A stretch of 64,000 bases of DNA. It comes from Rhodopirellula sp. Lineage in GTDB: Bacteria > Planctomycetota > Planctomycetia > Pirellulales > Pirellulaceae. The DNA lies in contig NZGD01000090.1 of the NCBI GenBank assembly GCA_002690925.1, forward strand, positions 62,001 through 126,000, given 5' to 3'. Shown here in pieces: positions 6,387-44,019 of the stretch (the first letter of the stretch is position 1; every line of letters starts with the position of its first letter). The position numbers were made by a program, and so were the translations under genes. Under the pieces are notes generated by a model. It worked only from the letters and a program-made list of their open reading frames with translations, did no database searches and had not been told where the DNA came from.

Positions 6387-6910
6387 GGATCGATTGTCCC
6401 AATTGCTTCGGGTTCTTAATAATGCACGAGGCTCGTGCGGTCACTCTGACTCTCCATTATCACAGACATGCAGAGAATGACGACCCCGCTCATTCAGAAA
6501 CCTGAGAACGCCAGGGACTGAGGTTTTTACATGACAAGGCGTCCATGTTCGGATTTTGATCCAATGCCCTGTAAAGCCGTCGAAGCCGTTGAAGGTTATC
6601 TATCTGTGGTCAGATTCACTCAGGTTTGACAGATTTGAAAGTCTGAAGGCAGTGAGGCCGAAAGGTGGTCGCTGGTTCGTAATTGGCAGCTTCGGGTACT
6701 GGAGTTTTTGCAACATTCTCTGCAACAATGACCCGCGCCGTGGAATCGGCAGTATCGATGGATGCTCACTCGGGAGCAACGAACGTCCTTGAGGATGAGA
6801 CGGGATATAACAAAGGTTCAATTGACATGTTCGGACTTCACTTAAACCAGCCTACTGAAACAAGTCCCAAGACTGCGGCACGGACGATCACCCTCAACTT
6901 GAAAATCGAT
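6387..6910. other. Long upstream region of the 909-aa gene
   Basis: These 524 bp lie between divergent genes. The downstream reading frame is open back to 6683, but those 76 extra codons have no homology I recognise and would bury the signal peptide, so I treat them as untranslated. No RNA or repeat was recognised. Confidence 0.45.
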
Positions 6911-9640
6911 ATGCGAATTCTCTCTCAACAATCCTGTGGCCGCATCCAACAGCCTTCATTGAGCCATTTCGTGCTTGCTACCTTTTTTCTGGCATGTGCT
7001 ACTTGCGCGAGAGCGAACGATGTTTTTATTACGGCAGCCGTTGGCACGCCGTTTGGGGCGGCGACGATTGAAATGCCTCTCGATGCCGCCATGTTTGGCC
7101 GGACTTTTCCTGCACTCAGAGTGAGTGGTGGGGATGGCCGCGTCTTGTACCCTGTCTCGAACGATCTGGTCACCACCGGCCGACCCTCCGAACGACCTGT
7201 TCCTCAAGCTGGTGGAGGTCGACTTTTGAATCGGGTGGGCGGTTTGATTCGCGAGCTCGCAAGTGGTGATCAGGAATTGAACCAGACTGTTGCTCGCAGG
7301 GTTTCGTTCCTGTTTACAGGTTCCGAGCCGCTAACAGTTACCGTCACCGATGATCGCGGTGTGATTGGTAATTACTCTGTCGTGCCACAACAGGATCAGA
7401 CTGTTCATACAAGCGTCCTCAAGACATGGTGGACAGGTTACACAAATGCAGTTCAATCGCTTGTTTTGACATCCGAACAACCAGCCGCTGTGCAACTGTA
7501 CCTGGTCGCGATGTTAGCCAGACGCACGGGCTTACCTCTGCCCACTTGGTATAACGAGTCAGGGCAAGCAGAAGACCAGTTGTTGAGCACATTGCAATTG
7601 ATTGGCGGCGCTGCTGGGGTTGGTGAGTCGATATTTGCAGAGGCTGCGGTCGAAACAAGGCCACCACAATTGGCGACTGAGCCTCTGCCTGCACCACCGC
7701 GTTGGATCCCTGAAATTGTTCCTTCAGATGTCAAGACTGCAATTGTTGAGCCAATTGCCACAAAGGTTCCACCGGACTGTTTCTATATCCGGTACGGCTC
7801 TTTCCAAAACTATTTGTGGTTTCAGGATTTGACTGATGAGTATGGCGGTGACATCACGCGAATGATCACGTTGAGAGGTCTTGTGAATGATAGTACTGAA
7901 CGACTTGAAACCCAGCTGAACATGAAAATGACACAGTTATCCCGCATGCTGGGCGGTACTGTGATTGAGGATCAAGCGCTCATTGGAAGAGATCTGTTTT
8001 TGACTGATGGTGCAAGCATGGGAGTATTGATCAAGTCGAGAAATGCATTCCTGCTTACCACCTCAATCAAGAATGATCGTACCAAGCTCGCGCAGGCGGA
8101 TACGACAGTCACATTAGAAGATTTCCAAATCAACGGCCGGGAAGTCAGTTTGCTGAGCACCGCAGACAACCGCATTCGCTCATTTTTTACGCAGGATGGA
8201 AACTACATCTTTGTCAGCAACAGTCGCAAGCTGACTGAGCAATTCATCGAGGTTGCTAAGTCAGGGAAGTCGCTTGCCAAGACACCTGAATTCATGCTTG
8301 CCAGGAAGTTAATGCCTCTCGAGCGTGACGATACGATTTTTGCTTATTTTTCTCCAGCAATGCTTCGCGGTTTGGTTTCACCGGAATATCTGATCGAGTT
8401 GCGTCGCCGGATGTTTGCCAAGGCAGATATCTCTCTTGTCCAACTGGCCAGAATGGCGGGCGCTATGGAGAGAAAATTAAAGCCAAGCGATTTGGGTGTT
8501 GAGCAGTTGATCGCGGCTGGAATGCTGCCACCTAATTTCGGTAGTCGATCAGATGGCAGCGGTGTGTTTGAATTGAACAACGCCGCACTGGATACGATGC
8601 GCGGTGCTCGGGGCAGTTTTCTGCCAATCGCTGATGTGGAAATCAAATCAGTAACACCGGATGAGTTTGCTTGGTACAGTGAGATTGCGAACGAATACAC
8701 CAACCGATTTGCCAGCATGGACCCGATCATGCTGGGAATCCACCGTGACGATGATCGAGATCCTAATTCAAATCGTGAACGGCTTACGATTCACGCCGAG
8801 GTTGCGCCATTTAATCCAGGTAAGTACGGTAAATATGCTCAGCAACTTGGGCCACCTACGCAGGTGGCGATGCAATTCGCGCCTGATGACATCATTTCAC
8901 TGCAAGCCCATGTTGCTTCCGAGCAGCTTGGTCCACCCACGCATTTATTTGCAGCGATCAAGGATACGGTACCTCCCACGCCTGAGCAGTTTGAGGGCAT
9001 CATCAAAGCCTATCTCTCCTTGCGGCAATTACCGGGATACCTCGGTGCCTGGCCACAGCCAAGTACACTCGATCGTCTCCCTCTTGGTTTAGGGCGTGGC
9101 CAACCGGTGGGGCCCGGGATGAGTCGTCTTCTGGGCGGGTTATATCGGTTCACAGATGGTAAGTTCAGTATCCTTTCGTTTCAGCCAGAAGTGATCACCC
9201 AGAGCTTGCCGTTTTTGGCGGCCACAGATGATCCCACACCAGCACAAATTCGAGCCAATGTAGGTGATTTGAATGGAAGTCAGTTGGAGGGCTGGGCGAA
9301 TGGCCAACTGTACGCCAGATCCCGTATCAGTAGTGTTGCCACAGCGCAGTTCCTTGATTCAATCACCCGCCAGTTCCAGTTGACACCAGACGAGGTGCTT
9401 TCAACGGTGAAGAGCATTCTTGGAGCTGATGTGCAATGTAGTCTTGGCGGTCAATACGAGTGGTCAGAGCAGCGAGGGCAATGGCAAAGTACCGCGTGGA
9501 ACGGGCCACTGGCGAGTCCGATAGCACCAGTTGATTATGTCGCACCGGCAATGAAGTGGTTTCGCGGGGCTAACATTTCCGTCACACAGTTTGACGATCG
9601 AGTGATCGCAGACGCGATCATCACTTTGGCACGTGAATGA
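6911..9640 (+). CDS. Large exported protein of unknown function
   Basis: I chose ATG 6911 because it places a signal peptide at the N terminus: a basic start, the hydrophobic stretch HFVLATFFLACATC, and a cleavage site near ARA-ND. An in-frame ATG at 6683 would add 76 residues. The mature protein (about 870 aa) has no TM helix and resembles large planctomycete-only proteins with repeated alpha/beta layers, but I cannot name a domain. No catalytic motif was seen. Periplasmic or cell-surface location is inferred. Confidence 0.75.
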   Translation: MRILSQQSCGRIQQPSLSHFVLATFFLACATCARANDVFITAAVGTPFGAATIEMPLDAAMFGRTFPALRVSGGDGRVLYPVSNDLVTTGRPSERPVPQAGGGRLLNRVGGLIRELASGDQELNQTVARRVSFLFTGSEPLTVTVTDDRGVIGNYSVVPQQDQTVHTSVLKTWWTGYTNAVQSLVLTSEQPAAVQLYLVAMLARRTGLPLPTWYNESGQAEDQLLSTLQLIGGAAGVGESIFAEAAVETRPPQLATEPLPAPPRWIPEIVPSDVKTAIVEPIATKVPPDCFYIRYGSFQNYLWFQDLTDEYGGDITRMITLRGLVNDSTERLETQLNMKMTQLSRMLGGTVIEDQALIGRDLFLTDGASMGVLIKSRNAFLLTTSIKNDRTKLAQADTTVTLEDFQINGREVSLLSTADNRIRSFFTQDGNYIFVSNSRKLTEQFIEVAKSGKSLAKTPEFMLARKLMPLERDDTIFAYFSPAMLRGLVSPEYLIELRRRMFAKADISLVQLARMAGAMERKLKPSDLGVEQLIAAGMLPPNFGSRSDGSGVFELNNAALDTMRGARGSFLPIADVEIKSVTPDEFAWYSEIANEYTNRFASMDPIMLGIHRDDDRDPNSNRERLTIHAEVAPFNPGKYGKYAQQLGPPTQVAMQFAPDDIISLQAHVASEQLGPPTHLFAAIKDTVPPTPEQFEGIIKAYLSLRQLPGYLGAWPQPSTLDRLPLGLGRGQPVGPGMSRLLGGLYRFTDGKFSILSFQPEVITQSLPFLAATDDPTPAQIRANVGDLNGSQLEGWANGQLYARSRISSVATAQFLDSITRQFQLTPDEVLSTVKSILGADVQCSLGGQYEWSEQRGQWQSTAWNGPLASPIAPVDYVAPAMKWFRGANISVTQFDDRVIADAIITLARE

Positions 9641-18663: not shown

Positions 18664-20262
18664 TCAGCTAGCGCCGGGGCCACCTGGAGCTCCAGGTGAA
18701 GGCGGTCGACCGTTGCTACCACCGCCGGATCCGCCCGGTGCTCCGGGAGAGCCGGGAGAGGGAGGTCGGCGACTGTTGCCGCCGGCACCGGGACCCCCTG
18801 GTGCTCCAGGCGAAGGTGGTCGTCCATTGCTACCTCCTGCTCCGGGGCCACCCGGTGCTCCGGGAGACGGAGGTCGTCCGTTGCTACCGCCAAATCCGCC
18901 CCCGGGTGCTCCCGGAAATGCGGCGGGGCCGCCACCATAACCACCTGACATGTCATCTCCCATTTCGTCACCCATGTCATCGCCCATGTCATCACCGTAG
19001 CCCTCGTTGTACGCACCGAAGCCACCATTGCTACGCCCGTTACCCTGGTTCGAGGCGACGACGGGAGCTTTGCCAAGAGCGGTGGCAAGAGTGATCAGGG
19101 CCGTTTGAATGGTGGGGGAAAACAAACCATCCATTGCCGCATGGAATTGGTCAGAGGATTGTGAATTTGCAAGCGGGCTGAGGGCTGGGTTGAAGGCTCC
19201 CACTACCAAACCAAGTGAATCAATCATCCCGGTGGTGCCTGTGATATCGCCTTTGAGTGACTCAATGTTCGCGGTCCAATCATCAGCAATCGTTTTTGGA
19301 ACCCAGTAACCATCAATGGAAACAAGTTGGATGTCTCGGGCGCCGCCATCCTGTTCCACGTTAATGACTGCGACACCGTCTTTTTCTGACTTTACCGTGA
19401 TCTCTCGACCAATACTCAAACCGATTCGATCAACCAATTGAGCCAAGTAGGGAGCAATCACTTGATCCCGTTCGCTTAGCCATTGGCCGAAGCTGATTGT
19501 TTGCAGCTGATCCAGATTGGTAGCTTCCGGCGAAAGTCCGACTCGCATCAGATCAGCGAATGGCAGAATCTGTTCCTCAACGGCATCGAAGTCTTTCGGC
19601 GGTAGAGCTTGAATGCGAGGGCTTGAGAGAAACCAGTTTTGGTGATTAATGACGACGTCACCAAATCTTTGGGCAGTTCCAACTAAACCTTGCCATGAAG
19701 TTTGATTCAGTTGAGATGCTGTCAGCTTCACCACGTCATCTACATCTTTTCGATAGCTAGGTGGCAAGGCATCGTAGACGGCTATCAGATGGCCATCGGT
19801 GATTGCATCGTCGATCTGGTTAATGAAGTCGGCGACATTGGAATTGGCTTGTGGAGGTTGGTAGGCAGGTGCTGGAGACGGAGTGGGAAGAGGCTGGGGG
19901 GCGGCTGCGGAAGCCGCGGCTGCGTTTCCCTGCAACTCGGCGACGCGGTCCGCACGCGACATTTCCAATTGCCGTGCAAGTTTTTGTGCTTGAATACGGC
20001 TTTCGCTGCGTAGATCCTCCATTTTGACAGCAACACGTTTGCCACCTGTCAGTTCAAGGATCACAGAATCACCCCACAACCCGATCATTCGAGCTTCTAC
20101 CGTGCGAGTGCCTCGCAGGTCGGTCCAGAGTTCTGCTTGCGCAGCGAAGATGCAAATCACTGAGAAAGCAGCGACCATTACGAACCGTGATGCTGTTGCA
20201 ACGCTCCGACGGCATTGATGCTGAAAGAGGGAGGTGCGGTTGCAGCCTTTCGATGTATCCAT
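18664..20262 (-). CDS. Exported SHD1-domain protein with collagen-like Gly/Pro tail
   Basis: I start at ATG 20262 (532 aa) because it gives a signal peptide (SRFVMVAAFSVICIFAAQA); the frame is open to 20355. After the signal comes an SHD1-like domain (about 46-90: WTDLRGTRTVEARMIGL, then GKRVAVKMEDLRS), then an Ala/Pro linker and a 250-residue globular part. The tail has acidic DDMGD repeats and then about four copies of an 18-residue Gly/Pro unit. SHD1 domains are common in exported planctomycete proteins. Function is unknown; surface structure is a guess. Confidence 0.8.
   Translation of the reverse strand: MDTSKGCNRTSLFQHQCRRSVATASRFVMVAAFSVICIFAAQAELWTDLRGTRTVEARMIGLWGDSVILELTGGKRVAVKMEDLRSESRIQAQKLARQLEMSRADRVAELQGNAAAASAAAPQPLPTPSPAPAYQPPQANSNVADFINQIDDAITDGHLIAVYDALPPSYRKDVDDVVKLTASQLNQTSWQGLVGTAQRFGDVVINHQNWFLSSPRIQALPPKDFDAVEEQILPFADLMRVGLSPEATNLDQLQTISFGQWLSERDQVIAPYLAQLVDRIGLSIGREITVKSEKDGVAVINVEQDGGARDIQLVSIDGYWVPKTIADDWTANIESLKGDITGTTGMIDSLGLVVGAFNPALSPLANSQSSDQFHAAMDGLFSPTIQTALITLATALGKAPVVASNQGNGRSNGGFGAYNEGYGDDMGDDMGDEMGDDMSGGYGGGPAAFPGAPGGGFGGSNGRPPSPGAPGGPGAGGSNGRPPSPGAPGGPGAGGNSRRPPSPGSPGAPGGSGGGSNGRPPSPGAPGGPGAS
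18667..18900. repeat. Tandem Gly/Pro coding repeats
   Basis: Four imperfect copies encode SNGRPPSPGAPGGPGAGG or variants, read on the minus strand; one copy has NSRR in place of SNGR. The codons are GC-rich compared with the rest of the gene. Such repeats can expand or contract by slippage. Confidence 0.8.
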
Positions 20263-20491
20263 CGCTTTTTGTGCCTTAAAATCGTCGAGAATGCCCATTT
20301 CGGCAGTGGGGCGGAGTTGATAGCGGTATACCCGCATGGAGACTTCCGAATCCATTATATTGAGAATGCGTTTCGAATGCGGCCCCGAAAACGGAGCATA
20401 TTTTGCCGAGTTTTGAGGTTTTGAGCCGTTTGTTACGCTTGGGAGGAAATGGATTCAGCGATCAATCCTGCGGAGAGCCACATTGAGTGAC

Positions 20492-22981: not shown

Positions 22982-25330
22982 TCACGGTAAAGCAAGCAGT
23001 CTCTTGGACTCTCTCAGCAGAAAATCAGCATCGTTGAATGGTTCATAGCTGATATCTTGCCAACGCACTTTTCCGCGGTGGTCAATCAGAAAGGTTCCGT
23101 GAAGAGGTTGGTCTTCAAAGTCATCCCAACAGCGGAATTGCTTGAAGATCTGCTTGTCGCTATCGCTGAACAACGGAATTTTGATCTCTTCACCATAGCT
23201 TTCCAGGCCTTCTTTGAGCTCCTGAACGCTTTCAGTGCTGATCGCAACGACTTCGATTCCAGCTTTTTTATACTCATCATAAAGTGGTGAGAACTCGTGA
23301 ATCTGTTCGATGCAGTGCAAACAACCAAAACCGAGGTAAAAGATAATGACGCGTGGCTTACCATCAAATTCTTCGCCAGCCACCAGAGTTCCATCAGGTG
23401 CTTTCGCGCCCCAGGTGGGTGATTGATAGGGTTGCCACCGGAATGGTCCGAGTTCGTTCAGTGGAGGACGATCCCCCAAGTCTTCTTTGGGAGCTTCCGG
23501 CAATCGCCAGTCCGTTTTTGCTCCGGCAGCTTTAGCAACGGGAGCAAGTTTGGCGAGCATGGGGGTGTCGAGGTCAGCAGTGCTAGCGGTTTTCTGCAGC
23601 GTTGAAAAGTGTTTTTTTGCCTCGTCTTTTTTCCCTTTCTTCCATAGCAGGTCGATCAAGACTGCTAAGGGGCGGACCTGACTGGGGCCGTCTTTAACAG
23701 CTTTTTCGGCAAGCTTGATTCCTTCATCTAGTTGCCCAATTTCAGCTTGCCATTGTGCTTGAATTAATGGATTCAAGCGTCCTTTGGGTAACTGCTCTTT
23801 GAAGACCTTCAGGTCTTTTTTCTTGACCGCTTCTGCAGCCTTGACGCGTGCAAGTATCTGATCCAGTTGCGTGACGTGCCGCTTTACTTCATCGAGCGAT
23901 GGTTCAGGCTTTTGTTCATTCTCTGGTTTTTCTCCTTCGTCTGATTTTTTATCTGTTTTGGAGTTTTCGTCTGATTTCTTTTCTGCTTCGTCTTCTTGCT
24001 TGTCCTCAAGATCCAAGACGGTTGTTTGCAATACCAGACTGCGACGGAGCAATGATCTTAGGGTTCGAGCGCCTTGTTTGTTATCACCAGTCATGAATTG
24101 TGCGACCGCAACCCAGCCAAGCCATGTTTCTTGCTGTGCGTCGTCCTCCGTGGGCGGAAGGTAGGTACCACCCGCTTCTTTAATGAGTTCATCCCACAAC
24201 GCATACTCGGTCAATGTTTGGATCAATCGTTCGCGACCGTATTTGTGGCTTCCACGTTTGGTCAAGGTGTTGTAGCGAGGATGTTGCGGCAGCGAAACGA
24301 GATTTCGGGACAGATCCAACGCATCTTGAACACGACCCACATACAACAAGTTCCGAACCAACCATTCATTGTTGTGCGCAAAGTTGTGAATCTGGTCAGG
24401 CATCAATCTTGTTCGGATCATGTGAGCATGATCGACTCTTGCTGATGCCTCCTGTTGCCAAGCTGCGTCGTTGTACCGTTTCAGCTTCGAGTAGATGTGT
24501 CCCGGCATGTGCCACATGTGGGCAATTCCGGGGCTGGCAGGTCCGCACATTGCAGCTGACTGGACAGCATTGTCCGGCCGGGCCGAGTCCCACAAATGAA
24601 TGCGGTAGTGATGGGAAGGATGCATCGGGTTGGCTGTGAATACTTCGCCTAGCAAGGCATTGACAGCGTAACGACTGGTAATCTTTACACCGCTGCGTTC
24701 TGCAAGCCAAAGCTGAAGGGCAAGTAAGGCACGCGCTTCGATGTCATCAGGAAAATCATGTAACAGTCGTTCCATGTCACTGAGGTAGCGTTCTGTTCGT
24801 TTCTTTTTTTCTTCACGTTCCGCTTCGCGGTCAGCTTTTTTTTCGTCTTTTTTGGGTTTGGGAATTAAACGATCCAGTGCTTCGATGTAGAGCGTTTCTC
24901 TTCGAGTTGTATTCGTTTTGCGAAGCTCCATGGCTTTGTCAATGAAGCCTCGGGCGCGGCTTGTGTTGTTGGCGTTAGCCATTGTCATGCCCCAATAGGC
25001 AATGGCGAGCCCGGGATCTTCTTTGGCCGCCTGTCGAAAAGAGCGTTCCGCTTCCAGGTACCAAAATCCATGCAGTTGCGCGATCCCCTGCTCTATGAAC
25101 TTCTGAGCGGTAGGTGTTTTTGCCGAGGTCTCAAATTTGATGGGTGACATCCCATCAATCAAAACAGCAGCTTGACGCGGCCCTTCATTGAATGCCTCCC
25201 CGTGATAACTGTGACCTGCTGCGGGGCCATCAGTACTGGACTCGGCTTCGGCCTTCGCTGGTTCAGCGGCAAAATTTGCCAGGCAAGGAGCCAGGAAAAC
25301 AGCTAACAGAAGAACATTTCTTAAAGACAT
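22982..25330 (-). CDS. Exported TPR protein with C-terminal thioredoxin-like (redoxin) domain
   Basis: ATG 25330 is preferred over GTG 25336 (782 aa). A signal peptide (1-20, ending NFAA) precedes a long helical region with TPR-like blocks (EQGIAQLHGFWYLEAERSF). A Lys/Glu-rich charged insert lies near 440-480. The C-terminal 150 residues form a redoxin fold with the active-site motif FGCLHCIEQ (CXXC) and the GTFLIDHRGKVRW strand. Reductase or thiol-exchange activity outside the cytoplasm is likely; the TPR part probably binds a partner. Confidence 0.87.
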   Translation of the reverse strand: MSLRNVLLLAVFLAPCLANFAAEPAKAEAESSTDGPAAGHSYHGEAFNEGPRQAAVLIDGMSPIKFETSAKTPTAQKFIEQGIAQLHGFWYLEAERSFRQAAKEDPGLAIAYWGMTMANANNTSRARGFIDKAMELRKTNTTRRETLYIEALDRLIPKPKKDEKKADREAEREEKKKRTERYLSDMERLLHDFPDDIEARALLALQLWLAERSGVKITSRYAVNALLGEVFTANPMHPSHHYRIHLWDSARPDNAVQSAAMCGPASPGIAHMWHMPGHIYSKLKRYNDAAWQQEASARVDHAHMIRTRLMPDQIHNFAHNNEWLVRNLLYVGRVQDALDLSRNLVSLPQHPRYNTLTKRGSHKYGRERLIQTLTEYALWDELIKEAGGTYLPPTEDDAQQETWLGWVAVAQFMTGDNKQGARTLRSLLRRSLVLQTTVLDLEDKQEDEAEKKSDENSKTDKKSDEGEKPENEQKPEPSLDEVKRHVTQLDQILARVKAAEAVKKKDLKVFKEQLPKGRLNPLIQAQWQAEIGQLDEGIKLAEKAVKDGPSQVRPLAVLIDLLWKKGKKDEAKKHFSTLQKTASTADLDTPMLAKLAPVAKAAGAKTDWRLPEAPKEDLGDRPPLNELGPFRWQPYQSPTWGAKAPDGTLVAGEEFDGKPRVIIFYLGFGCLHCIEQIHEFSPLYDEYKKAGIEVVAISTESVQELKEGLESYGEEIKIPLFSDSDKQIFKQFRCWDDFEDQPLHGTFLIDHRGKVRWQDISYEPFNDADFLLRESKRLLALP

Positions 25331-25490
25331 GAGCACGGAAGCTTCAGGTGGGGATTAACAGGCCTTGGAATTCAACATTGTAACTTGCTTGAGAATTCTC
25401 GCTTGGTATCCGCGCTCGTTCAGCGTGTGACGAGGCACTTTGCGTCCGAGAATTGCTCGGAACTTGGCCGAATTAGCGTCCTTTGTGCCA

Positions 25491-36618: not shown

Positions 36619-39600
36619 TTACTGCCACTGGCAAAGGGACTCGACATAGTCCGCGCTGCCATCGCGTTTCCATGAATCCAGTTGTGCCTGTGTCTTCAGT
36701 TGCTGCCCACGCAATAGCGGTGTTGCAAAGAAGGAACAATCAATTTCAGGCAAGGAGCTCATGTCGCCCCACAGCTTTTCGAATTGGGCAACAGGAAAGA
36801 CGTCCTCTTGGGCGTGTCCCCATCTCTTTTTTACATCTTTCAGAGTGATATAGGTGGGAAGCCTTGAGGCCATTTGTCTAACTGCCGCGCTGACGCGTGT
36901 CTCGTCTTCGAGATCTTTTCGCTCGAGCCCGAATGACGCAAGCAGCTGATTGATGCTAATCCACGTCGTCATCGAATTGTAGAAAGTCAGATTGAATTCG
37001 GCTTCATCATCAGGCATCGCAAGCCCTTCCACCAATCTTGGTCGACCACTGACTGAGGCCAAGCCTCCACCTCGATCGTCAATGCGTCGACCAATGACTT
37101 CAAAGCTGAGTGTGTTTTGTTGTTTGATGTGCATGCCGAGTAAGCCAGGGTCGACATTGGCGCCCAAGGTATCAATGTTATGGAGCATCAGGTACTCAAG
37201 CTCAGGTTGATCGCTGAGCATTTGATTCAGTATTCCATTGAGTAACATGTTGGGGACTTCGTACCAGTGACCAACGGGGTGGATGCATTGGTTTGGCAGA
37301 TTGTCAACGTAATCAGTTCCCTCTCCCATCTGTTTAGCCCAGCCCATCAATGCTGCCCGCGCGCTTTCTCTCATTTTCTGTTGTTGTTCATCCAGAATCT
37401 GCTGGGCTGTTTCTTCCCAGAGAAAGCGAAGATCCCGAATCATCGGGATCATCCGCATCCCGATGCTTCGGCCAGTTGAAATGTACACTTGATTCTTGAG
37501 ACCGTGATTCTGGTGAATCGTCAGGTGCGTCCGAATGGCCTCATCAGTTAAGTGGCTGGTGGTAAAGACATGAGGAATCGAACCGTTACAGTCGTTGCTC
37601 GTTTTGCGATTCTTTGCTAGATGAACCTCAATGAAACTTCGGTGGCGACCTGAGAATCGATTGAAGGGGTGAAGTGCTTTGCACACCCCTGCGCCTTCTG
37701 TCCAACGACTTCCCACTCCGGCGGCCAAAGTGACGACTCCAACCTTACCCTGCTGGATGGTCTGCTGGCCTAGTTCAACGAGTTGGGCAGGAACACCAGA
37801 TCGGGTTTCGATGAAATCCTCTGGCTTTATATCTTTCAACGTCATGTTGCTGGAAAGACGATTCTGAGCGAGACCAATTCTACCACTTTGTAGATCACTT
37901 CGAATCGCTTCATGTTGCTGTTGGTCAAAACCACAGCTACTAAGTATCTGTTGTAAATTCGCGGTTGTTGCGGACGCAGTCGCGGCTTGCGGAAGAATGC
38001 TGTCCAGCAGTTTTTTATGCTGATGATTTTCGCTGGCTCGGCACTGTTGTCCGAGGTGCTCCAATTCGAGACGCTGATCAGGGCTTAATTCCCTCATTGA
38101 GGTGCGCAACAGTCCAGGCAGTACAAGAGCGTAATATTGCTCGGGCATCCCTGCTGCAGGTTCGTCAACGAAATTCGCTTTGGAACCATCGTCGTTGATT
38201 TTAAAGTCGTAGACGACAGGATCCATCGCAAATGGCAGCGAGGTTTGCAGACGCTGTTTGGTTTTGATCAAAGTACGGCCGAGCCAGTCCTGAGCTGCTT
38301 GTTTGATATCAGGGTCAAAAATGAAGCCCATGCCCCCACCCGACATGCCGCCTAGCATCCAGAAACCCCAAAATTGATCACCGTATTGTTCGCGGCATTG
38401 TGTGATCAATGAGTCGGTAAAGCGATTTGTAGCCCACGGAATGATCGTTTGCAGAGGGCCTTCGAAATTGCGGGTTGTCGCATCACCGATTCGCTTCAGA
38501 TCACCATCACCTAACGCTTTGACAATTTCATCAAGAATTTCCATTGCATCGAAACGACCCACCCATTCCTTCTCACTTCGAAGCAGGTAATGCTCTGTGA
38601 CCATTTCCAAAATGGGACCGACATTTTGTGCCATCCCACCGTGCACCAGTACCAATGAGTCCTGTATTTTCTGTCTCGTTTCGCAAGAAACCTCACCTTC
38701 GGACATCACATGGTGCGTCGGCATCAAACGTCCACGGCTAATCCCAAATTCGGGATCACCTTCCTGAGATTTTGCTCCCTCGATGAGTTTGATTCCGGGC
38801 CAGACACCACCTGAATCCTGCCAACCGCCACCGCTTCCGCCAATCCACTCTCCTAAGATCGCACGTGCTGCAACAAGCCGTCGATCGCTCTCCTGCAATG
38901 TGCCAGTCAGGCTTGTGGTCTGATTGGTGGCTCGCATCATCAATGAAATCAAAGAACCAAGAAGATTTGTCGACACAGCCAGCCGAGATCCCTTGGGGAT
39001 GTCGTTGATCTTGCTGACCACCTCGATCCCTTTGCCGCTACCTACGATGCGGGTCAAGAGTCCAGCGAGTGAATGTCCGCATCCTTCCAGTCCGGGTGGA
39101 ACAATGCCAGAGGCAATGACAGCTGCTTTAAGTAGTCCCAGGTGATCCTGAGCAAAATCGAACATGCTTGCGATTGACTCAACTTCCACCGTGGCCCCCA
39201 AGTCCACACTGGTCAGTCTTATGACTGGATGATCAATCACTCTGAGGTACGTCTCGATAGGGGGATTTGTGGTTGTATCACGCCCTCGTACCCCAAGATC
39301 GACCGATGCGTTGAGTACGCGGGCGCCTTCTGGGAAATCCATTCCAAGGAAAAAAATATCACTCCACGCGCTATGAGAAAAATCCATGCGCACCGCAGTG
39401 ACTTCACGTAGAATCGGCATTGCGCCGGTGTCTGGATGTGGTTTCAGTATCTCAGGCCGAATTCTTAATGGCTGTTCAGCCGGATGCCCCAACCGGAACA
39501 TCCATTGGTTGCCTTTGACTGTTCGGACACTCCGACGCACCTGATCAGCAAGTGTCTGGAACGCGAGCTGATGATAGGCTTGTGCCAAAGCACTTGCGAC

Positions 39601-39933
39601 GCCATCACAGGGGCCCTGGTTTCGTTGTGTCAACAGGAATGAGTCAATCGCTTCAACGAAACGTCGCGAAAGCAAGTGCTCGTATCCCGGGTAAGGGATG
39701 TGCCCCGACTGTATGGCGTTGAGCTGTTTTGGCAGATGGTAACGATAGATCGCCGACAAGAAGAAGAGGGCGCGAACGCGATGGTAAAGGTTCTCTTCCT
39801 GTCGCCGGAAATCATCCAAGTCCTGACAATGGGCAAGCAGTGTTTCCAGGTTTGCTCCGGAGCATACCGAATCGAGTGAGCGATTCCGAACTTCGTTCTC
39901 GTCCGAAAGAATGATATCGATCAGAGAACTCAT
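36619..39933 (-). CDS. Bifunctional GHMP-kinase-like and UDPGP-type nucleotidyltransferase protein
   Basis: The 1104-aa protein has three parts. Residues 1-150 are helical and unrecognised. About 160-580 is a GHMP kinase like L-fucokinase: a degenerate glycine-rich loop DIPKGSRLAVSTNLLGSL (311-328), IGGSGGGWQDSGGVWPGIKL (364-383), and the GHMP_C block WMLGGMSGGGMGFIFD (525-540). About 725-1104 is a UDPGP-type pyrophosphorylase: LAAGVGSRWTEGAGVCKALH (736-755), IHPVGHWYEVPNMLLNG and HNIDTLGANVDP. Phosphorylation plus nucleotidylation of a sugar is inferred. Its ATG overlaps the stop of the GalU-like gene. Confidence 0.82.
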   Translation of the reverse strand: MSSLIDIILSDENEVRNRSLDSVCSGANLETLLAHCQDLDDFRRQEENLYHRVRALFFLSAIYRYHLPKQLNAIQSGHIPYPGYEHLLSRRFVEAIDSFLLTQRNQGPCDGVASALAQAYHQLAFQTLADQVRRSVRTVKGNQWMFRLGHPAEQPLRIRPEILKPHPDTGAMPILREVTAVRMDFSHSAWSDIFFLGMDFPEGARVLNASVDLGVRGRDTTTNPPIETYLRVIDHPVIRLTSVDLGATVEVESIASMFDFAQDHLGLLKAAVIASGIVPPGLEGCGHSLAGLLTRIVGSGKGIEVVSKINDIPKGSRLAVSTNLLGSLISLMMRATNQTTSLTGTLQESDRRLVAARAILGEWIGGSGGGWQDSGGVWPGIKLIEGAKSQEGDPEFGISRGRLMPTHHVMSEGEVSCETRQKIQDSLVLVHGGMAQNVGPILEMVTEHYLLRSEKEWVGRFDAMEILDEIVKALGDGDLKRIGDATTRNFEGPLQTIIPWATNRFTDSLITQCREQYGDQFWGFWMLGGMSGGGMGFIFDPDIKQAAQDWLGRTLIKTKQRLQTSLPFAMDPVVYDFKINDDGSKANFVDEPAAGMPEQYYALVLPGLLRTSMRELSPDQRLELEHLGQQCRASENHQHKKLLDSILPQAATASATTANLQQILSSCGFDQQQHEAIRSDLQSGRIGLAQNRLSSNMTLKDIKPEDFIETRSGVPAQLVELGQQTIQQGKVGVVTLAAGVGSRWTEGAGVCKALHPFNRFSGRHRSFIEVHLAKNRKTSNDCNGSIPHVFTTSHLTDEAIRTHLTIHQNHGLKNQVYISTGRSIGMRMIPMIRDLRFLWEETAQQILDEQQQKMRESARAALMGWAKQMGEGTDYVDNLPNQCIHPVGHWYEVPNMLLNGILNQMLSDQPELEYLMLHNIDTLGANVDPGLLGMHIKQQNTLSFEVIGRRIDDRGGGLASVSGRPRLVEGLAMPDDEAEFNLTFYNSMTTWISINQLLASFGLERKDLEDETRVSAAVRQMASRLPTYITLKDVKKRWGHAQEDVFPVAQFEKLWGDMSSLPEIDCSFFATPLLRGQQLKTQAQLDSWKRDGSADYVESLCQWQ

Positions 39934-40787
39934 GGAGTCGTCTCGGTATCTGTTCGATTAGCTAACAGATCAATCAATTCAACGAGTATTTCGTCGCGAT
40001 CTTGACCACTGAGTCCTATGGCAAGTTGAGCCTTGAGCAAGCCATATCGAATCCCAAGGTTATGTCTCGTTCCGTCCAGTCGATATGCCAAGTACTTGCC
40101 ACGTTTCAGAAGCATTGCGACCGCGTCAGACAGTGTGGGCTGTACAACGGTCTTTGAATCTAACAATTGACCGATCAGATCCATGATCTCACCAGTGAAG
40201 ACATGCATGCCAAAGAAGCCAAGGTAGTGGCCAGCCCGCAAGCCAGGGGTCACAAGTTCCTGCTCTGCATAGGTCGGGGTTGGTTTTTCAACGACTCGGT
40301 CGACTTGATAAAGTCCATTCGTTCTTGGGGTTGGTGAACCACTGACGATGCCGAAATAAGGGAGATTGTTTTCTCGAGTCGATTGAACCGCAGAAACTGA
40401 ACATTCATGCTCGTTGGCCATTTGCACTAGTTGTTTTGCACATGGAGTACCTGTGTTACTCAGGTACAAATGGTCTCCCACCAGATGTAGAAACGACTGG
40501 CCGTCAACAAACGATCTTGCACGGTAGACGGCGTCTGCATATCCGAGCGGCTCGGGCTGCTCGACAAAGTGCAGATTCCCGACTTGTTTTCCGGCGGCTG
40601 CTTGATAGGCCTCCATGTCGCCCGGTTGAATGATCACGCAAACTTCATCAATGCCGGCAGCAACAGTCTCTTCGATGATGAGCTGTAACGCTGTTTTTTC
40701 CTGTCCATCCCTGTCCACCAATTGCTGGAGCGGGAGGCGGTTCTGATTTGGAGCAGCAGCGGTAATGACCGCTTTTTGTATCGGCAT
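39930..40787 (-). CDS. GalU-like nucleotidyltransferase
   Basis: The 285-aa protein has a Rossmann nucleotidyltransferase fold: an atypical loop VITAAAPNQNRLPLQQLVD, LQLIIEETVAAGIDEVCVII, EQPEPLGYADAVYRAR, the metal-binding GDHLYL, and VVEKPTP. The usual GxGTRxLPxTK loop is degenerate (AAPNQNRLP), so activity may differ from GalU. Its stop overlaps the start of the GHMP/UDPGP fusion by 4 bp; both probably work on the same sugar nucleotide route. Confidence 0.82.
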   Translation of the reverse strand: MPIQKAVITAAAPNQNRLPLQQLVDRDGQEKTALQLIIEETVAAGIDEVCVIIQPGDMEAYQAAAGKQVGNLHFVEQPEPLGYADAVYRARSFVDGQSFLHLVGDHLYLSNTGTPCAKQLVQMANEHECSVSAVQSTRENNLPYFGIVSGSPTPRTNGLYQVDRVVEKPTPTYAEQELVTPGLRAGHYLGFFGMHVFTGEIMDLIGQLLDSKTVVQPTLSDAVAMLLKRGKYLAYRLDGTRHNLGIRYGLLKAQLAIGLSGQDRDEILVELIDLLANRTDTETTP

Positions 40788-40910: not shown

Positions 40911-41060
40911 ATGCATCACCTGGTTATGGTCATGCGGTTAATATTGGCCGTGAACTGCGAGTCACGGCTTCACTGGCCTTTGTGGAATGCTCAATGCCAT
41001 GGGCGTCCCAAGACAAGAAACGTTGGATTCAACGCGTCAAAACGGACTCGGTCCAATTGA
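40911..41060 (+). CDS. Possible 49-aa small ORF with strong ribosome-binding site
   Basis: The AGGAGGA at 40897-40903 sits 7 nt before ATG 40911, an ideal Shine-Dalgarno. The ORF runs 49 codons (MHHLVMVMRLILAVNC at its start) and overlaps the 3' end of cbiET on the other strand. It has no family. The overlap and basic composition make it doubtful. Confidence 0.25.
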   Translation: MHHLVMVMRLILAVNCESRLHWPLWNAQCHGRPKTRNVGFNASKRTRSN

Positions 41061-42232
41061 TACTGTCCTCGGGCGATATTGATCATGCGAACATCGCTGC
41101 GTAGCCCCGTTTCGTCGATTTTTGTTTGCACAGCCACTAAATTGTCAGGGCTGGAGACATTGACGACGATACTGCCCCCCGGCTTCAGGCGTGTTAAGGC
41201 AGCCTGAACAAGATCCGGAACCATGCGTCCACTTCCACCGATGAAAATTGCATCAGGAGTTGGTAGCTCGTCGAACGCTTCCGGCGCTTGGCCATGAATT
41301 GGAACAAGCCCGGGTACATCAAACATCCTCGCGTTTTCTACCATTAGCCCAAAATCTTCTGCGTCCATCTCAATCGCGAAAACCTTTCCTTTGGATGCAA
41401 TCGCAGCCGCCTCGATCGCAAGTGAGCCGCTGCCTGCACCGACGTCCCAAACAATGCTCGTTTCGGTTAACGAGAGTTCTGACAACGCGATGCATCGTAC
41501 TTCGGATGGTGTCAGTAAGCCGCGTTTGGGACGTGATTGTAGGAATAGATCGTCAGGGTTTCCAAACAATCGTTTGCGTCGGCTACCACTAGGGGAATCT
41601 GCGGCACCTTGACGGCGGACCAAAACCATCACATTCATTTCAGAAAACGACTGTTCACGAATCGAACGCAAATCACCCTGAGTGACCACCTCATCAGGGG
41701 TGCCAAGGTTTTCGCAGACATAAACAGTGAAGTAATCGATCCTTCGATCCAGCAGAGCTTCGGCGACAACAGACGGTGATATCACGTCGGTTGTGAATAG
41801 TCCTACTCGCTCCGCGGTCCGAATATTATCGACGACTCTGTCAAGCGACTGCGTGGCCAGGTTGGTTAAGTAAGCGTCATCCCAACTCTCTTTCACACGG
41901 GCAAATGCTAGTTGCATGCTGCTGACGTGTGGCACCACTTCGAAACGTTCTTTGCCGAACGAATCAGTGAGGTACCGTGCGATCCCGTAAAATAGGGGAT
42001 CACCACCAGCGAGCATCACAGTGGCTCGTTTGGGTAGTTTGACAATGGTTTCTTTCAGTGATTCCAAGCCACCCCCGATCTCCAAACGCTCCGCGTTGGT
42101 GTCAGGGATTTTTCGCAACAGGGGTGATGTTCCAAGCAAAACTTCCGCTTGTTCGATCAATTGTCTCGCATGTCCGGTGAGACCCTGAAATCCGTCATCT
42201 CCAATGCCGACAATGTGTATGCGTGATGTCAA
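40991..42232 (-). CDS. cobL: Precorrin-6Y C5,15-methyltransferase, CbiE-CbiT fusion
   Basis: The enzyme methylates C5 and C15 of precorrin-6B/cobalt-precorrin and decarboxylates C12 during B12 synthesis. The 413-aa protein joins a CbiE half (1-200: IHIVGIGDDGFQGLTGHAR, VMLAGGDPLFYGIARYL) and a CbiT half (about 230-413: IVWDVGAGSGSLAIEAA, DAIFIGGSGRMVPDLV). The fusion is the common CobL form. No other cobalamin operon gene is adjacent; cbiX is 30 kb away. Confidence 0.95.
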   Translation of the reverse strand: MTSRIHIVGIGDDGFQGLTGHARQLIEQAEVLLGTSPLLRKIPDTNAERLEIGGGLESLKETIVKLPKRATVMLAGGDPLFYGIARYLTDSFGKERFEVVPHVSSMQLAFARVKESWDDAYLTNLATQSLDRVVDNIRTAERVGLFTTDVISPSVVAEALLDRRIDYFTVYVCENLGTPDEVVTQGDLRSIREQSFSEMNVMVLVRRQGAADSPSGSRRKRLFGNPDDLFLQSRPKRGLLTPSEVRCIALSELSLTETSIVWDVGAGSGSLAIEAAAIASKGKVFAIEMDAEDFGLMVENARMFDVPGLVPIHGQAPEAFDELPTPDAIFIGGSGRMVPDLVQAALTRLKPGGSIVVNVSSPDNLVAVQTKIDETGLRSDVRMINIARGQYQLDRVRFDALNPTFLVLGRPWH

Positions 42233-43080: not shown

Positions 43081-44019
43081 TCATTGATTGCGTTTTTCAC
43101 GTTGCCGGCGACTATATCGTTCCAGCAGTTTTCGTTCAGATGATGTCAGGCTTTCTTCGCCGTGTTGGTGAATCTTTGCCAGTAATCGGTCAGCTTCATC
43201 CGCCTCCTTACGCAGCTTTTTGTCAGGATCATGAAGCTTCAATTTCATGCGTCGTGAGCGTTGACGCATCCTGCCACGAATGTCCGGAGCGGTTGTGGAA
43301 TTAAGCCAGCGGAAATTCCAGTGACCGTAATGATATGCCAAGGCAAATCCAGCTCCGGCCAAGTGAACCGTGAAGGCTGTTGAGGTTTCACCACCGGAAA
43401 GAGTGTACAGGGAACCCAGCAGGTCCATGCCGACGCAAAGTGCTGCCAAAACCCAAGCCTTCATCTTAACAATTCCCCAAAGGAACAATTCCTGTTGCGG
43501 GTAATAGCATGCAAACATGACAACCAGTGCCAGGACTCCTCCACTCGCTCCAATGGTGGGAATTGCCTCGCTGGCTTCGGCGGTTGCAGGCATGCCGTTC
43601 GTCGCCAAGCCTGTGATCGCCCCGATGAATCCTCCGACGATGATTGATATCAGATAGAAACGCAGGAATTCAGCGCCTCCCATGCGAGCTTCGACCATTC
43701 GGCCGAACACATAAAGCATGGCCATGTTGAACACGATGTGCCATATCGAATTCAGGTCATGGAAAAAGCCATAGGTCAGGAACTGCCACCACATCCATGG
43801 TTCGAGCAGTGTCATTGGAACGAATCCAAAGGCTCTGAGAATGTCAAATGATTCACCACCATTGGAACCATTATCGACAAACAGCATGCTGATCAGGAAG
43901 ATGACGACGTTGATGATGATCAAAGTCACCGTCATGCTTCGCGGCTTTTGGACGCGATCCCAAGACGTTTGATAGGGGTTTTGATCGTCACGTCCGTAAT
44001 CTCGGTCATAAAGACCCAT
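43081..44019 (-). CDS. Rhomboid family intramembrane serine protease
   Basis: The 312-aa protein has about six TM helices. The catalytic serine lies in IGASGGVLALVV (Ser159, GXSG) and the histidine in TVHLAGAGFALAYH (His219). The FNMAMLYVFGRMVE helix with the family's HxxxN (HIVFN, 94-98) is intact. The last 80 residues are basic and cytoplasmic. All catalytic residues are present, so it should cleave membrane proteins. It lies 104 bp downstream of the S41 peptidase gene. Confidence 0.93.
   Translation of the reverse strand: MGLYDRDYGRDDQNPYQTSWDRVQKPRSMTVTLIIINVVIFLISMLFVDNGSNGGESFDILRAFGFVPMTLLEPWMWWQFLTYGFFHDLNSIWHIVFNMAMLYVFGRMVEARMGGAEFLRFYLISIIVGGFIGAITGLATNGMPATAEASEAIPTIGASGGVLALVVMFACYYPQQELFLWGIVKMKAWVLAALCVGMDLLGSLYTLSGGETSTAFTVHLAGAGFALAYHYGHWNFRWLNSTTAPDIRGRMRQRSRRMKLKLHDPDKKLRKEADEADRLLAKIHQHGEESLTSSERKLLERYSRRQREKRNQ

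Follow-up and report, generated by a model that had tools for sequence, protein, structure and literature searches.

The closest described counterparts of the gene pair reported here are the FKP of Bacteroides, the eukaryotic-type UDP-glucose pyrophosphorylases (UGP), the GalU-family protein YngB, a zebrafish fusion protein, and the pair GMPPA and GMPPB. The two genes, which we call A and B, lie in a 64,000-nucleotide stretch of DNA from Rhodopirellula sp. (the window: assembly GCA_002690925.1, contig NZGD01000090.1, positions 62,001 to 126,000); A encodes a GHMP kinase fused to a UDPGP-type pyrophosphorylase, and B encodes a GalU-like protein. For FKP, passages of PMC11982464 assign roles to R592, W599, D601, T602, E751, Q761, D762, G717, S719, and S720: D762 is the general base, S719 the metal serine, T602 a sugar contact, and the loop contacts phosphate through backbone amides. 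For UGP, passages of PMC5832301 and PMC10470519 name Lys99, Gln162, Gly191, His192, Asn220, Lys256, Gly258, Glu271, and Asn293 in the Arabidopsis enzyme among others, name Lys135, His228, and Lys403 in the Aspergillus enzyme (AnUGP), and describe three basic residues, Lys, His, and Lys, as essential. The UDP-glucose residues of YngB are named in a part of PMC7961091. In the zebrafish fusion, the activity of the pyrophosphorylase domain could not be confirmed, according to passages of PMC3938481, and GMPPA is described, in the partial accounts used here, as a paralogue of GMPPB that has no catalytic activity, binds GDP-mannose, and acts as its regulator.

We propose that A is probably an active, bifunctional nucleotide-sugar salvage enzyme and that B serves as its obligate, mostly non-catalytic partner derived from GalU. 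No paper on this A-B family was found in the open-access PMC literature, judged by title or abstract, and the word “undescribed,” used in a first-pass annotation of the window, holds in that literature. The annotation had also described a fusion of 1104 amino acids, GHMP and then UDPGP, with an ATG overlap to a second nucleotidyltransferase and in an order reversed relative to Bacteroides FKP; the coordinates and a 4-nucleotide ATGA confirm the layout, and the kinase of A does come first. The features of the pair, with the evidence for each, are as follows.

36619-39933, minus strand: gene A, GHMP kinase-UDPGP pyrophosphorylase fusion, 1104 amino acids (open reading frame, families, structure profiles, model, Foldseek)
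39930-40787, minus strand: gene B, GalU-like partner, 285 amino acids, upstream of A (open reading frame, families, Foldseek)
39930-39933, minus strand: ATGA overlap of 4 nucleotides, stop of B and start of A (sequence)
39454-39933, minus strand: A residues 1-160, N-terminal region, mostly helical, no family match (model secondary structure; no Pfam match up to E 1)
38254-39414, minus strand: A residues about 174-560, fucokinase-like GHMP domain (profile alignments, Foldseek)
38965-39000, minus strand: A residues 312-323, IPKGSRLAVSTN, variant phosphate loop (alignments; column invariance; model confidence low at 314-318)
38815-38832, minus strand: A residues 368-373, GGGWQD, whose Q372 and D373 align with Q761 and the general base D762 of FKP (alignments, invariance)
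37774-38253, minus strand: A residues 561-720, largely helical linker of lowest conservation (model; conservation)
36622-37773, minus strand: A residues 721-1104, UDPGP-type nucleotidyltransferase domain (Pfam, profile alignments, Foldseek)
37678-37719, minus strand: A residues 739-752, GVGSRWTEGAGVCK, nucleotide loop containing R743 and K752, the latter the counterpart of UGP Lys99/Lys135 (alignments, papers, invariance)
36694-36696, minus strand: A K1080, probable equivalent of AnUGP Lys403, the second essential Lys (profile-profile alignment, moderate here; paper; invariance)
40692-40760, minus strand: B residues 10-32, AAAPNQNRLPLQQLVDRDGQEKT, altered nucleotide loop replacing GxGTR...PK of GalU (alignments, loop reading)

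Retention of B with A

In the window's class, taken to be Planctomycetia from the nearest named relative of A, the two genes appear to form an obligate pair. In a sample of 397 genomes from this class, searched for A at E <= 1e-10 and for B at E <= 1e-30, A is present in 117 (about three in ten); B is found in 109 of these and in 0 of the 280 genomes that lack A (Fisher p 7e-89, kinship not corrected). The coupling of A to a GalU-like gene, noticed in the first-pass annotation, is supported.

A second sample, the named loci, comes from a scan of contigs with the peptide patterns EKLWGDM and SHS[AG]WSDI, which found at least 540 relatives; the best 80 were kept, each flanked by as much as 6 kb in either direction. 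B lies in the locus of A in 71 of the 80, always upstream and on the same strand (71/71). With start codons assigned mechanically, the two genes overlap by 4 nucleotides in 22 loci and lie within 50 nucleotides in 60, and one pair is 1197 nucleotides apart. Among the other 9 genomes, B is on another contig in 7 and none was seen in 2. Five of these loci (L094, L110, L112, L116, L145) have an A that is truncated or begins close to the end of its contig, and they carry little information on linkage; in the others, the sequence read upstream of A, about 6 kb in L103, L123, and L138 and less than 1 kb in L121, holds no B, and B stands elsewhere in the genome. In one single-contig genome (G088), about 0.92 Mb separates A from B. 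Both genes are kept after separation, which argues that they function together and are not hitchhiking.

Protein B: a GalU fold with an altered loop

B exceeds the Pfam cut-off for NTP_transferase, and its model (mean predicted local distance difference test score, pLDDT, of 92.6) matches YngB and GalU in Foldseek, consistent with a GalU fold. It falls short of the curated GalU model TIGR01099 (84.2 bits against 326.8). Under a mapping from YngB to B that uses an inferred offset of one residue in numbering, every distinct B sequence readable at the position (101 or 102) retains the residues of YngB Q105, G110, D133, G172, E191, and K192; the product-site residues Q77, D105, E167, and K168 of B are likewise retained in all of them. 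The site of YngB D134 is His in all 101.

The nucleotide loop has fared differently. The GxGTR loop and the Lys that follows are absent from the window's B, whose own loop reads AAAPNQNRLPLQQLVDRDG, and from the rows read outside one clade. At the Lys28 column, 101 sequences divide into Leu (88), Met (8), Thr (3), Ile (1), and Phe (1), a count in which the longer loops of that clade are not visible. Its members come from family f21 and, within family f23, from genus g118, and the nine A proteins of this long-loop group form a single branch with support of 1.0 in a FastTree phylogeny of 107 A proteins. The 8 clade loops read (L165-L172) start with GRGAR in 7 cases and GRGPG in one, and hold Lys (6) or Arg (2) in the place of the Lys; a much larger number of B proteins from f21 align to the model only from about residue 65, and the clade counts refer to these 8 loops. 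By alignment, then, B keeps what holds the nucleotide sugar and, outside one clade, appears to have lost what GalU uses at the triphosphate. The first-pass annotation had called the loops of both proteins degenerate: this stands for B outside the clade, and does not stand for A, where the loop is an invariant variant. Its idea of a regulatory pseudo-domain likewise seems to fit B better than A, with the canonical loop of B lost outside the clade.

These observations bear on the most durable of the alternatives, in which A and B supply three working enzymes of one pathway: A would make a sugar-1-phosphate and one nucleoside diphosphate sugar (NDP-sugar), and B would be a true nucleotidyltransferase, one with an atypical loop, that makes a second NDP-sugar or acts on the same sugar-1-phosphate. 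The retention of Q77, G82, D105, E167, and K168 in all 101 or 102 B sequences suits this idea, as do clade loops such as GRGARQYPASDTVQKAMLPLVDRDG with Lys in 6 or Arg in 2 of the 8 read, and an Asp at B 243, a site that is usually Asp in the GalU family, in 37 of 104 sequences. Against it stand the Leu that 88 of 101 sequences have in the Lys column, the short loop of the rows read from elsewhere than the clade, and the His found throughout at the site of YngB Asp134. No row read combines a long loop with Asp243, the 9 clade rows having Asn. We regard a fully enzymatic B across the family as possible though doubtful; within the long-loop clade, B may be catalytic.

Protein A: a kinase half with a changed but fixed loop

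The two domains of protein A are more conserved than its linker (mean conservation 0.765 and 0.736 against 0.589 over 113 rows). Residues 180-543 match the FKP model PRK13412 (NF009948) over its kinase half only (1.2e-17, 63 bits), far below the curated cut-off of 721, and the domain order is reversed. No NCBIfam model attains its cut-off on A or B. A profile of the A family matches the solved FKP at residues 174-395 (6.9e-11), and the family check proposed for A finds GHMP_kinases_C weakly (E 0.12) and UDPGP (PF01704) at 42.8 bits, above the gathering cut-off of 22. The AlphaFold model of A, built on a 68-sequence alignment, has a mean pLDDT of 88.3 and a predicted template-modelling score of 0.89; confidence is low at 314-318 and 368-370, both catalytic loops, and at 651-656 and 1038-1042. 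In Foldseek the model retrieves full-length FKP first (1.1e-19), the comparison that the annotation had called for. Its kinase half aligns to the FKP kinase 9iip with a template-modelling (TM) score of 0.76 and to the heptokinase WcbL with 0.82, both by target length, so the GHMP fold placed at residues 160-580 and staked on structure prediction is present in the model. Against UDP-GlcNAc and UDP-glucose pyrophosphorylases, TM scores are about 0.5-0.6, with root-mean-square deviations of 6-11 Å over long alignments.

Active sites of A and B were compared with those of known enzymes through alignment. One alignment (FKP 583-783) pairs FKP R592, W599, D601, and T602 with A R182, W190, D192, and I193, and two (FKP 608-776 and FKP 583-783) pair E751, Q761, D762, G717, S719, and S720 with E362, Q372, D373, A319, S321, and T322; FKP Ala900, which makes a backbone contact, falls outside the mapping. 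Counts for A refer to 116 distinct proteins from 122 rows, with exact duplicates counted once and only rows with a letter at the column. R182, W190, D192, S321, T322, E362, Q372, and D373 are identical in all 113 or 114 of them, so that the catalytic Asp and Glu and the motif-1 Arg of GHMP kinases are invariant. The same eight columns are identical in the 39 distinct rows outside the peptide-pattern scan (37 or 38 with letters at each), which come mostly from the window's class, plus two from Chloroflexota.

The phosphate loop itself is not canonical. In place of GSGLGSS, A has GSRLAVST, with FKP G715 replaced by R317, G717 by A319, S719 retained as S321, and S720 replaced by T322, which preserves the Ser/Thr pair; the loop DIPKGSRLAVSTN was confirmed as first quoted. 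GSRLAVST occurs in every row with letters at all eight columns (119 rows, duplicates included). A loop that is fixed, with the metal Ser and the next hydroxyl kept, favors a working kinase with a changed loop over decay. By fold and residues we call this half GHMP-like, a non-standard member of the GHMP group.

The contrary view takes the GHMP half for a pseudokinase that binds or senses a sugar and leaves activity to the UGP half alone; it draws on the replacement of two loop glycines by Arg and Ala in all 113 sequences and on the Ile at the site of FKP T602. It has to contend with the invariance of the general base, of the Glu and the Arg, of the metal Ser, and of Trp, Asp, and Gln in the sugar site; the backbone-amide contacts to phosphate described in passages of PMC11982464 could still be made with Ala and Arg in the loop. 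We find a pseudokinase quite unlikely. The same invariance runs against a regulatory pseudo-domain within A, as the first pass had entertained: across the sequences read, neither half shows a change at a mapped catalytic residue. The counterparts of FKP R592, E751, Q761, D762, and S719 and of the three essential basic residues of UGP are identical in all 111-114 distinct readable homologues.

The pyrophosphorylase half of A

Alignments place the UGP residues at A K752, G888, H889, N919, R954, G956, E969, N986, and K1080. Of these, K752, G888, H889, N919, G956, E969, and K1080 are identical in all 111-113 sequences, and the three essential basic residues are thereby all present (K752 and H889 in 113/113, K1080 in 111/111); N986 is Asn in 108 of 111 and Ser in 3. 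The second Lys had for a time been placed at A1049 (FPVAQ), which made the C-terminal domain look defective; this placement was dropped, as the profile-profile alignment pairs PVxQLETAMG with FPVAQFEKLWGDM and the Lys with K1080.

The base-binding Gln162 of UGP was paired by eye with A residue 826, four residues before an invariant Pro, where the profile-profile alignment has a gap; the placements of 826 and of K1080, both in regions of modest similarity, are likely. In the long-loop clade (L165-L173, L182, L183), residue 826 is Gln (f21, 8 rows) or His (g118, 3 rows), and all 8 of its B loops that were read belong to the GalU type; outside it, the B loop is short and residue 826 is Leu or Met. 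Both changes coincide on one clade.

Coexistence with FKP and GalU

If A were an alternative FKP, it would convert L-fucose to GDP-L-fucose. Its pocket keeps the counterparts of FKP Trp599, Asp601, Gln761, and Asp762, the uracil-binding Gln of the UGPs is mostly lost, and canonical FKP is rare, with 2 of the 397 class genomes having it. The T602 site is Ile throughout, so the sugar of A need not be L-fucose. Of the UGP sugar contacts, Asn, Gly, and Glu are conserved and the second Asn is almost as constant, a pattern that suits a glucose-like sugar-1-phosphate. One of the 2 FKP-bearing genomes (G394) also has A, and a further genome outside those two (G028, locus L181) has A together with an FKP of 1114 bits whose loop is VPKGSGLGTSS. 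An L-fucose pathway is on this evidence distinctly improbable. The simpler suggestion that A replaces FKP was rejected, FKP being rare and coexisting with A in G394 and G028; mutual exclusion was not seen.

Least probable of all is that A-B is the housekeeping source of UDP-glucose where GalU is absent, a reading that can cite the distribution of GalU, which at E <= 1e-55 is present in 5 of the 117 genomes with A and in 48 of the 280 without it (odds ratio 0.22, p 3e-4, uncorrected for kinship), but has to accommodate the 232 of 280 A-negative genomes that also lack GalU at this threshold, the single-domain UDPGP proteins in some such genomes, a kinase half left unexplained, and the presence of both GalU and A-B in the window's own genome. 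Replacement of GalU by A was accordingly discarded as a weak, kin-confounded signal. Among the 20 module-bearing genomes examined first, 6 have a GalU match of at least 240 bits. The GalU of the window's assembly (G000:C105:7622-8413) is the sole one above the curated cut-off among the 397 genomes; it may lie on a foreign contig, given the 7.84% contamination of this assembly (7.78 Mb in 314 contigs, completeness 90.4).

Distribution and genomic context

The pair also occurs in records titled Verrucomicrobiota, Chloroflexota, Acidobacteriota, and Armatimonadota. Among the best 80 of at least 540 relatives, the nearest named one is a metagenome-assembled genome of Rhodopirellula sp. (93% identity), and those from other phyla share about 58-63% identity with the A of the window. 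In a quick phylogeny of 78 A proteins the phylum label changes 10 times, where 6 is the minimum possible, with phyla taken from record titles, several of them metagenome-assembled genomes with doubtful labels. The tree largely tracks phyla, so we make no claim of recent transfer. In a sample of Chloroflexota, full-length A is present in 3 of 151 genomes, one of which is the chosen center, and 2 more match the UDPGP part only.

The neighborhood gives no clue to the sugar: in the 80 named loci, no gene family other than A and B recurs in more than 6. The cobalamin, AhpC, rhomboid, sulfatase, and DUF480 neighbors of the window are kept mainly in closer relatives, and a Pfam scan of ten other window genes provided no sugar-nucleotide lead. 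Promoter-like sites number 1 against 3.9 in shuffled sequences, and terminator-like sites 11 against 5.2, mostly within genes; neither scan yields a usable signal. Upstream of B, at 40991-42232, lies a fusion of a tetrapyrrole methylase with a methyltransferase, which adjoins the pair only in some closer relatives. Elsewhere the window encodes a rhomboid protease with DUF6576 at its C-terminus (43081-44019), a 784-residue protein that has TPR matches and, at its C-terminus, an AhpC/TSA domain (22982-25336), and two open reading frames, of 985 residues (6683-9640) and 563 residues (18664-20355), that have no Pfam match at 1e-5.

Proposed function

In the proposed route, the GHMP half of A would transfer a phosphoryl group to C1 of a free sugar; D373 would act as the general base, E362 and R182 would take part in catalysis, and W190, D192, and Q372 would form the sugar site. 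The UGP-like C-terminal half would then join the sugar-1-phosphate to a nucleoside triphosphate, giving an NDP-sugar, by means of its GVGSR loop, K752, H889, D921, and K1080. B, which keeps residues for binding a nucleotide sugar, would probably form a complex with A and may sense the product, as GMPPA does for GMPPB. The activity of A, the order of the steps, the A-B complex, and sensing by B are all what we infer from residues and distribution, and a salvaged nucleotide sugar is a plausible product.

Several findings weigh against this proposal. In the kinase half, the FKP sugar contact T602 is I193 in all 113 A sequences, and two loop glycines are now Arg and Ala in all 113 with letters there; the use of ATP by A is for these reasons not assured. 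In the pyrophosphorylase half, the site of UGP Lys256 is R954 (Arg in 107, His in 4), and residue 826, at the Gln162 site, varies among Leu (94), Met (8), Gln (8), and His (3) over 113 sequences; with Leu or Met in 102 of them, the use of UTP is not assured either. The B of one clade, described above, keeps a GalU-type loop. The 80 named loci rest on two peptide patterns, one of which (SHS[AG]WSDI) covers W190 and D192, and, with the best 80 taken from at least 540, the invariance of A residues across phyla is partly selected.

Finally, no B was found in 8 of the 117 A-positive genomes, in all of which A is cut at or starts at a contig end or is fragmentary, a state that is no proof of a B in these genomes. 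A is cut at a contig end in three (G149, G169, G326) and is full but starts at a contig end in two (G301, G377). G392 (L185) has only pieces of A, with no B within the 14 kb read, and G102 (L186) has short pieces of A as well as of B; these two look like joint losses of A and B. In G193, a single 55-residue piece of A stands at a contig end, and the 5 kb read there contain neither further A sequence nor a B.

A more ambitious form of the proposal holds that A-B is a widespread, undescribed, two-protein machine for sugar activation: a kinase-first fusion whose loop and base pocket have been rebuilt, perhaps for an unusual phosphoryl donor and an unusual base, under the control of a GalU turned obligate nucleotide-sugar sensor. 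The clade that has a GalU-type B loop has Gln or His in the predicted base pocket of A, so A and B seem to have changed together. We think this more ambitious form unlikely in its entirety. Should the proposal be true, a route of sugar activation has been overlooked in much of uncultured bacterial diversity; there is a second way to fuse a fucokinase-like kinase with a pyrophosphorylase; and the pair offers a test case for the conversion of a metabolic enzyme into a subunit devoted to regulation, in which one living clade still carries a GalU-type loop.

Comparison with known systems

Bacteroides FKP also has a kinase and a pyrophosphorylase on one chain, and the kinase half of A is homologous to that of FKP, with the catalytic and most sugar-site residues kept; the two-step salvage of FKP is only proposed for A. 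In contrast to FKP, where the pyrophosphorylase precedes the kinase, the order in A is reversed, and the pyrophosphorylase of A belongs to another family, UDPGP. A also differs in its altered P-loop, in the Ile that stands for T602, in its partner B, and in its coexistence with a true FKP.

The C-terminal domain of A shares with the eukaryotic-type UDP-glucose and UDP-GlcNAc pyrophosphorylases the loop, the Lys, His, Asp, and second Lys, and most sugar contacts. Unlike those enzymes, it is fused to a kinase, carries an insert at about residues 830-880, and usually has Leu or Met for the base-binding Gln; the C-terminal beta-helix is not evident in the secondary structure of the A model. B has the fold and the nucleotide-sugar-binding residues of GalU and YngB, but outside one clade it lacks the GxGTR...PK loop, it has His for Asp134, it scores 84 bits where the GalU model asks for 326.8, and in the class sample it occurs only in A-positive genomes.

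Two further systems resemble the pair in logic. The zebrafish protein, a glucuronokinase joined to a putative UDP-GlcA pyrophosphorylase, is likewise a fusion of a GHMP kinase with a nucleotidyltransferase and shares the logic of salvage. Its nucleotidyltransferase is short, bacterial-type, and N-terminal and its kinase C-terminal, and a partner gene goes unmentioned in the passages of PMC3938481 on which this comparison draws; as described there, it indicates that salvage fusions of this kind exist in another arrangement. GMPPA and GMPPB, as far as the partial accounts of them go, offer the parallel for B: a catalytic pyrophosphorylase with a non-catalytic, product-binding regulator, as we propose for A and B. 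Those two proteins are paralogues, whereas in the putative A-B complex B belongs to the GalU family and the pyrophosphorylase of A to a different one, UDPGP.

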